Position numbers and translations under genes: made by a program. 64,000 nucleotides of DNA from Botryococcus braunii. Taxonomy: Eukaryota; Chlorophyta; Trebouxiophyceae. The notes under the pieces are model-generated. The model made no database searches and had not been told where the DNA came from. It worked only from the letters and a program-made list of their open reading frames with translations. Positions 53,225 through 53,749 of this stretch are shown piece by piece. The stretch spans positions 135,630-199,629 of the forward strand of contig KV908528.1 of NCBI GenBank assembly GCA_002005505.1, in the 5' to 3' direction. The number at the start of each line of letters is the position of its first letter. The first letter of the stretch is position 1.

Positions 53225-53749
53225 ATGGCGCGAACGCGACAAACCGGACGTATGAGCACGGGCGGAGGTAGACGTCCTCCACCACCACCACCTCCTCCAA
53301 CATACAACGAGAGAAGAAAGGCAGGAGGAGACAAAGGACCGCGGACGATAGACGAACGAGCATTCCTGGTGAAGGACTTCGTCCACGAAGCACACGGACG
53401 AGGAGCACTCACCCCACCTCAGTGGTTCCAAGAGCGCTTCCCAATATACCCAGCTTACAAATTCACTGTGTGGGAAGTCTCTTTCATCAACGGAGAGCCA
53501 GGATATCTGACACGAGCAATTTTTGAAAGGTGCCTACAGCAAAAGGGAGGTCCGTCGCACGAAGCTTACTGGACGGAGAAAGCTGCCTACGCAGCGATTG
53601 AGCTAGCTTTGAGCAGCCTGGGAGACGAATTTATTGACCATCTAATTCTCTACGGCGGAGGAGAATTTCACGCGGACGAGTGGGACACAGAGGAAGACAG
53701 TGTGGACGAGGACGGAGATTCCAGACTGTCAGAAAGGAGCGACGACTGA
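53225..53749 (+). CDS. E7 ORF0, intact: histone H3-tail-like N-terminus
   Basis: 174 codons, ATG at 53225, TGA at 53747. Residues 2-14, ARTRQTGRMSTGG, match H3 residues 1-13 ([13 protein letters not shown]) at 10 of 13 positions; differences are K4R, A7G and K9M. Met removal before Ala would expose the same free N-terminus as H3. Residues ~18-28 are a Pro run. The central domain (~29-135) has TYNERRKAGGDKGPRTIDER, AFLVKDFVHEAHG, PPQWFQERFPIYPAYKFTVW, SFINGEPGYLTRAIFERCL and EAYWTEKAAYAAIELALSSL. The tail (~155-174) is acidic (DEWDTEEDSVDEDGD). No known domain is recognised in the centre. The stop is 15 bases before gag ATG, in the same frame. I infer a chromatin-directed accessory protein; a structural or RNA-binding role is the alternative. 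Confidence 0.9.
   Translation: MARTRQTGRMSTGGGRRPPPPPPPPTYNERRKAGGDKGPRTIDERAFLVKDFVHEAHGRGALTPPQWFQERFPIYPAYKFTVWEVSFINGEPGYLTRAIFERCLQQKGGPSHEAYWTEKAAYAAIELALSSLGDEFIDHLILYGGGEFHADEWDTEEDSVDEDGDSRLSERSDD

Follow-up and report, generated by a model that had tools for sequence, protein, structure and literature searches.

We identified a short reading frame, designated ORF0, in copia-type LTR retrotransposons whose predicted protein begins with a stretch resembling the tail of histone H3. ORF0 is located 5' of gag in each of four elements (E3, E6, E7 and E8) of the 64-kb stretch of DNA analyzed here (the window), which is part of a 176 Mb eukaryotic genome with 35 light-harvesting-type matches that point to a photosynthetic host, and it is found 5' of gag in hundreds of copies genome-wide. 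Our comparisons confirmed that the likeness of the ORF0 N-terminus to the H3 tail is real, and codon analyses showed, for one of two ORF0 lineages (lineage B), selection for the peptide sequence itself that goes beyond its charge. Everything on ORF0 rests on this one genome. As a tentative reading, to which we give a probability of about 0.45, we propose that ORF0 may be an accessory frame whose N-terminal H3-tail look-alike docks on H3K9 writers or readers, likely weakening silencing of the element.

Copia-type LTR elements crowd the window, with E7 and E8 on the plus strand and E6 and E3 on the minus strand (Table 1). Two additional, near-identical copia elements, E4 and E5 (18523-33421), are apparently nested in E3. 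Direct LTRs were detected for both as 300-nt direct repeats, 6318 apart, and these repeats were 99-100% alike, a sign of recent activity; LTR repeats were read for E4 and E5, the 3' parts of E7 and E8 being cut off or beyond the window edge. In the E7, E8 and E4 proteins, integrase precedes reverse transcriptase in one pol frame (rve followed by RVT_2 in Pfam; in E7 and E8, RVT_2 scored above and rve below the curated cut-off), and by this order the ORF0 hosts E7 and E8 are of Ty1/copia type. The chromo family was absent from the Gag-Pol proteins of E7, E8 and E4 (Pfam, E up to 0.1), of which the E7 and E8 pol frames are incomplete. In E3, E6, E7 and E8, a sequence resembling a primer binding site starts 57-68 nt ahead of ORF0. 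In E7 and E8 this likely primer binding site, GGTTATGGGCCCAC, resembles and looks complementary to the anticodon arm of initiator tRNA-Met; half-tRNA priming from this arm is used by Drosophila copia. No H3-like start was detected for E4 and E5 in a six-frame scan of the window and in the leader of one of the two. That leader has a short ATG frame (MAQRRKGTRVYQ...) which is basic and not clearly H3-like.

Table 1. Features of the ORF0-containing elements in the window.
Feature	Positions	Strand	Remarks
E7 ORF0, 174 aa, lineage A	53225..53749	+	Open from ATG to TGA
E7 H3-like tail, residues 2-14	53228..53266	+	ARTRQTGRMSTGG, corresponding to H3 1-13; K4->R, A7->G, K9->M
E7 PPxY motif (PPTY), residues 24-27	53294..53305	+	Follows a proline run
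E7 Gag-Pol	53765..57796	+	Gag followed by integrase and then reverse transcriptase, as in copia; truncated at the 3' end, apparently through insertion of E8
E7 likely primer binding site	53159-53172	+	GGTTATGGGCCCAC; begins 66 nt before the ORF0 ATG
E8 ORF0, lineage B	58545..58757	+	Intact for ~71 residues, then broken (compared with locus L101)
E8 H3-like tail, residues 5-14	58557..58586	+	Corresponds to H3 2-11, 9/10 identical
E8 Gag-Pol open frame, copia type	58814..63202	+	Ends within the reverse transcriptase match
E8 likely primer binding site	58477-58490		GGTTATGGGCCCAC
E6 ORF0, lineage A	51396..51920	-	One in-frame stop near residue 65
E6 H3-like tail, residues 2-13	51882..51917	-	GRTKQSGRMLTG; K kept at H3 K4, M at K9
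E3 ORF0, lineage B	33599..34045	-	Final residues altered at the start of the nested element, which interrupts E3
E3 H3-like tail, residues 7-15	34001..34027	-	AKQTARKTT

A preliminary description of this DNA, made from the sequence, had claimed that residues 2-14 of E7 ORF0 (ARTRQTGRMSTGG) match H3 1-13 at 10 of 13 positions, that residues 5-14 of E8 ORF0 match H3 2-11 at 9 of 10, and that the tails of E3 (AKQTARKTT) and E6 (GRTKQSGRMLTG) agree. All four tails read as claimed; the picture of the frames behind them needed small corrections, since E8 ORF0 is broken, E6 ORF0 has a stop and E3 is interrupted. Canonical H3 genes are present in the host genome, and the tail of the host H3 is canonical. 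When H3 1-14 was scored along the window in all six frames, the four ORF0 starts ranked highest (49, 40, 39 and 35), and the next stretch scored 28. Among 30,000 shuffles of the 14-mer, 0, 4, 3 and 28 reached the scores of E7, E8, E6 and E3, respectively, and none reached the E7 and E8 scores together. In all four ORF0 starts, H4, H2A, H2B, reversed H3 and H3 18-31 scored below H3 1-14. The shuffling and reversed-H3 results indicate that residue order matters. When residues 1-27 of E8 ORF0 were used to search the PDB sequences, 93 rows were obtained, and each of the best 60 was an H3 chain, with a best E of 0.13 that is weak singly. The same search with whole E7 ORF0 gave 2 unrelated rows and no H3. 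By eye, the likeness ends near H3 residue 16, and Pfam searches with E7 and E3 ORF0 (E up to 0.1) detected no histone fold after the tail and no match in the core.

The four ORF0 sequences fall into lineages A (E6 and E7) and B (E3 and E8), which are 38-44% identical to each other. Over H3 2-11, E7 is identical to H3 at 7/10 positions and E8 at 9/10, and the two are identical to each other at 6/10. The lineages keep different residues of H3: A1-R2-T3, Q5-T6, R8 and S10-G13 in E7; K4-K9 and T11 in lineage B; and R2-Q5, R8, S10-K14 and P16 in an E6-type copy (L117). Between them they account for the whole of H3 1-14. This would be expected of an ancestor still closer to H3, and we infer that the ORF0 ancestor may have resembled H3 more closely than the present lineages do.

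The genome was searched with the ORF0 proteins of E7 (best 150 scored of 793 candidates) and E3 (best 150 of 795), and 100 ORF0 loci were fetched, including the best 30 of each search, which are close copies, and 40 chosen by identity and coverage before their sequence was seen; two were the window's own. The H3-like stretch was kept in 94 of the 100, two of which (L093 and L109) had no ATG. The other six had a frameshift or indel (L085, L098, L114 and L115), a replaced 5' end (L113) or a diverged sequence (L116). A degenerate KQTARKTT pattern, based on lineage B, occurred at 359 places genome-wide and the backward pattern at 0; Ser at R8, a further residue allowed by the pattern, was not seen among the 100 places listed. 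An anchor downstream of the motif, GPPSYN, occurred at 373 places, and among the matches listed KQTARKTT was found at a fixed offset in 96 of 100 lineage B anchors. The four anchors without it were an A7D copy (L120), a decayed frame (L119), L115 and one other. Thus, the absence of the motif from most copies, named in the preliminary description as grounds for rejecting its idea, was not what either sample showed. The diverged copy L116 has the N-terminus ARTPKWRKG, no ATG and no motif, and is either a dead copy or a member of a motif-losing lineage. No relatives of ORF0 were detected in a scan of IMG/VR.

Selection was most evident in lineage B, whose motif, KQTARKTT, equals H3 4-11 with S10T. 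On a tree of 36 unique sequences, nonsynonymous changes in its codons numbered 2 against 19 synonymous ones (omega 0.03; 0 and 9 on internal branches), and the motif was tighter than the lineage B core (198 and 263 changes, omega 0.23; Fisher P 0.002) and than the basic flank at residues 2-7 (16 and 20 changes; P 0.008), all of these being parsimony counts on related copies, for which P values are guides. Alignment rows were picked by a motif-based pattern that fixes several or most motif positions, and 87 of the 100 loci were kept. The 13 left out were A-type L029, L081, L083, L085, L091, L093, L097 and L116, and B-type L098, L109, L113, L114 and L115. By eye, all of them except L116, which is without the motif, failed by a stop, frameshift or indel, lost ATG or replaced 5' end and none by substitution at pattern-fixed motif positions; the five B-type loci failed by frameshift, lost ATG or replaced 5' end. 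Five further loci (L095, L117, L048, L049 and L064) were removed because they were broken, truncated or interrupted, and after duplicates had been collapsed 41 A and 36 B sequences were left. The A7D copy L120 is outside the counts and would add one nonsynonymous change to the lineage B motif.

Among 43 lineage B copies, the sole motif changes were one T6A and one R8G, and the basic residues immediately before the motif alternate between K and R. Q, T and A of the motif were no more variable than its K and R, evidence that it is not simply a patch of charge. The motif was spelled in 11 synonymous ways in 41 exact copies, up to 7 of 24 bases apart, with another spelling at C48 (L118), so that the constraint acts on the protein. 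By its ARK[ST]-like site, KQTARKTT of lineage B matches the H3K9-mimic motifs (EHMT/HP1 type) of non-histone proteins. The residue at the H3 T3 position was free (S in 18 copies, A in 12, T in 7, P in 5 and I in 1), and extra basic residues (K and R) precede the tail. H3K4 readers need a free N-terminus, and the free T3 position together with the displaced N-terminus therefore indicates K9 rather than K4.

Lineage A keeps RTRQTGRM(STGG), with M at K9 in 43 of 44 copies. R8, G12 and R at K4 were each present in 43 copies. Every one of the 44 had R2 and had G at A7, both of which the collecting pattern requires; T3, Q5, S10 and G13 vary. In 41 unique sequences the motif omega was 0.39 (residues 2-11) or 0.43 (residues 2-14) vs 0.20 for the core, a difference that was not significant (P 0.20 and 0.07), and the motif could not be distinguished from the linker (P 1.0). 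The E7-type tail highlighted in the preliminary description is thus the less constrained of the two, and the codon-level constraint it called for on the tail was strong in lineage B and, in lineage A, no tighter than that of the core. The variation at T3, Q5, S10 and G13 and a motif omega above that of the core suggest that lineage A may be losing its H3 likeness. The E7 tail is identical to an H3K9M peptide in 11 of the first 13 residues, and within G-R-M of lineage A, M stands in place of the target lysine, matching a K-to-M trap at the sequence level. According to the accessible part of one report (PMC5030085), K-to-M at H3K9 makes H3 peptides trap H3K9 methyltransferases, with dominant, SAM-dependent inhibition. 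R at K4 and M at K9 in lineage A suggest an unmethylatable trap.

Of 43 lineage B copies, 40 have a single methionine, located 5' of the motif, and an ORF0 protein initiated at an AUG in these copies would carry the tail. On the sequence side, this also speaks, for lineage B, against the possibility raised in the preliminary description that the ATG used might lie downstream of the motif. The lineage B ATG is in a weak context (T at -3 in 43/43 copies), and the leaders of the four window elements have between one and four ATGs ahead of ORF0; both features argue against a simple start at the first ATG of ORF0. In E7, ORF0 and gag are in one frame with a single stop between them. Readthrough or fusion of ORF0 and Gag-Pol as a rule was rejected, as the frame relation was 0, 1 or 2 across readable loci. 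Two ORF0 matches (G000:C556:62498-62959 and G000:C565:64999-65304) are within open frames of 2655 and 1821 aa and are apparently fused to a longer frame.

Behind the tail, a PPxY motif (PPTY or PPSY) is present in both lineages, including E3, E6 and E8, and the five codons around it are strongly constrained, with an omega of 0.12 in A (PPPTY) and 0.05 in B (PPSYN). WW-domain proteins are possible binding partners of this motif. An acidic C-terminal stretch (53660-53746 in E7) with an EW/DW-x-T/S-rich start recurs in both lineages and is possibly histone-binding. An AlphaFold model of E7 ORF0 (five window rows) had a mean pLDDT of 45 and was too poor to use.

In the mechanism that we propose, the ORF0 tail would dock onto host H3K9-methylating enzymes or H3K9 readers. 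In lineage B the lysine would accept methyl groups and in this way lure writers and chromodomain readers off nucleosomes, and the K-to-M tail of lineage A would be a substrate-like trap for the methyltransferase. With writers or readers engaged, silencing would be weaker and expression of the element favored. Enzyme preferences are consistent with part of this proposal. PMC8303541 reports R8 as critical for SUV39H1, SUV39H2 and G9a and, for the position following the lysine to be methylated, a preference of SUV39H1 for S, T, R or K; S10T of lineage B would thus be allowed, and KQTARKTT would be a plausible substrate. The same text describes G12 and G13 as read by SUV39H2 (PMC8303541). The lack of G12 and G13 in lineage B, and G for A7 in lineage A, count against docking on H3K9 enzymes. 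Searches of the host genome for Pre-SET, chromo-shadow and SET domains identified no H3K9 writer or reader. The Pre-SET and chromo-shadow searches gave no match in the host genome and none in any control genome either, and are thus uninformative. The SET search gave 11 matches, of which the one exon read was nearest to H3K36 enzymes, and one SRA match was over the cut-off. As histone H3 is abundant, a methylatable decoy would need high expression. Of the preliminary idea that ORF0 engages H3K4/K9 proteins, the retention of the motif and its selection in lineage B were borne out, and the K9 side, on which the constraint on H3 4-11 bears, is indicated rather than the K4 side; lineage A was the less constrained. 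If the proposal is true, the element parasitizes the same site at which it is marked for silencing, and its two lineages, one methylatable and the other K9M-like, would amount to a natural experiment on decoy vs trap.

An extended form of the proposal, which we regard as improbable, would make ORF0 two-ended: an N-terminal H3K9 bait (methylatable in lineage B, a natural K9M trap in lineage A) would be coupled to a conserved PPxY motif. Through the latter a WW-domain ubiquitin ligase would be recruited, and the H3K9 methyltransferases or readers would thereby be seized and removed. If true, a retrotransposon would be fighting silencing by impersonating a histone tail, and the oncohistone K-to-M trick would have been reached by nature.

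Other explanations of the tail were considered. The main rival, still unlikely in our judgment, is a chromatin tether, in which a methylated tail would be bound by chromodomain proteins and ORF0, with the particle or integration complex, would be brought to heterochromatin. It draws on the same K9-type site in lineage B, and chromodomain matches are abundant in the genome (best 150 scored of 1236 candidates), so that targeting to marked chromatin is perhaps used by other elements. However, M9 of lineage A is not methylatable and this lineage persists in many copies, and with no conserved frame link between ORF0 and Gag-Pol any link to integrase would be non-covalent. It is rather unlikely that the tail is a basic nuclear-localization or nucleic-acid-binding peptide with incidental H3 likeness. 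The tail is basic and N-terminal, lineage B has extra K/R in front of it, and several arginines are among the most constant residues of lineage A; but the K/R swaps of lineage B are in the flank and not in the motif, where Q, T and A are equally fixed, and the order of residues matters.

The methionine at K9 raises a different question, namely whether in lineage A it is a mere alternative start codon and the H3 likeness there a fading relic. In 41 of 44 lineage A copies there is no methionine other than M1 and M10, which together with the motif omega of ~0.4 speaks for such a start. On the other hand, M1 is in a strong context (G or A at -3 in 43/44 copies, G at +4 in 44/44), 39 of the 43 copies with an M10 have C at its -3 position, and R8 beside M10 is kept in 43/44; we consider this explanation quite improbable. 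Docking of a kinase (Aurora/haspin class) or of H3K4-type proteins (PHD-type readers), and not a K9 function, is very unlikely. ARKT resembles the Aurora-type site around H3S10, and lineage A starts with A/G-R, mostly followed by T, like H3 1-3; but in lineage B the T3 position is variable and a free N-terminus is displaced, and in lineage A K4 is R in 43/44 copies and S10 varies.

Our preferred reading, docking on H3K9 writers or readers, combines two known kinds of phenomena: histone mimicry, known from viruses and host proteins, and anti-silencing by proteins encoded in transposable elements. A review that covers influenza A NS1 (PMC12937675) describes a parasite protein with a short H3-tail-like stretch proposed to engage H3-binding proteins. 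That stretch is C-terminal and tied to H3K4 (PMC12937675), whereas the ORF0 stretch is N-terminal, is constrained on the K9 side in lineage B and is encoded by a retrotransposon. The H3K9-mimic motifs of EHMT/HP1 partners, as presented in the accessible part of PMC10611923, likewise are ARKS-like sites in non-histone proteins; those are host proteins (PMC10611923), whereas ORF0 is encoded by a mobile element and matches over eight or more residues. With the H3K9M histone of PMC5030085, as far as its accessible text goes, E7 shares R8-M9-S10-T11-G12-G13. That histone is a mutant, whereas ORF0 is a predicted natural element protein, with K4->R and A7->G in E7. In the accessible part of the literature on Arabidopsis VANDAL elements, VANC is an element-encoded accessory protein that counters silencing, a role only proposed for ORF0. 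VANC proteins bind element DNA and, in the same sources, are sequence-specific, whereas ORF0 has no Pfam family and would act via a histone mimic. Chromodomain LTR elements also engage the histone-methylation system, but they carry the reader, whereas ORF0 carries a look-alike of the site of the mark. Among the papers listed from the open-licence PMC literature, where most subscription papers are absent, none was found that describes a retrotransposon protein imitating the H3 tail. The available parts of papers on extra ORFs upstream of gag in copia elements, including PMC2774666, contained nothing like ORF0.

Additional observations concern the same genome. At least 150 chromodomain matches were scored of the 1236 candidates, many of them in open frames of 1382 or 1198 aa. 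These frames are probably chromovirus-type elements, another class that seems to carry histone-mark readers. Two divergent host H3-like genes (L042 and L046) were also detected, one of whose starts reads MARTKQS. The histone fold of L042 has LRW, presumably a CENH3-like hallmark, and its GGNRP recalls GGKRP of the E6-type ORF0.
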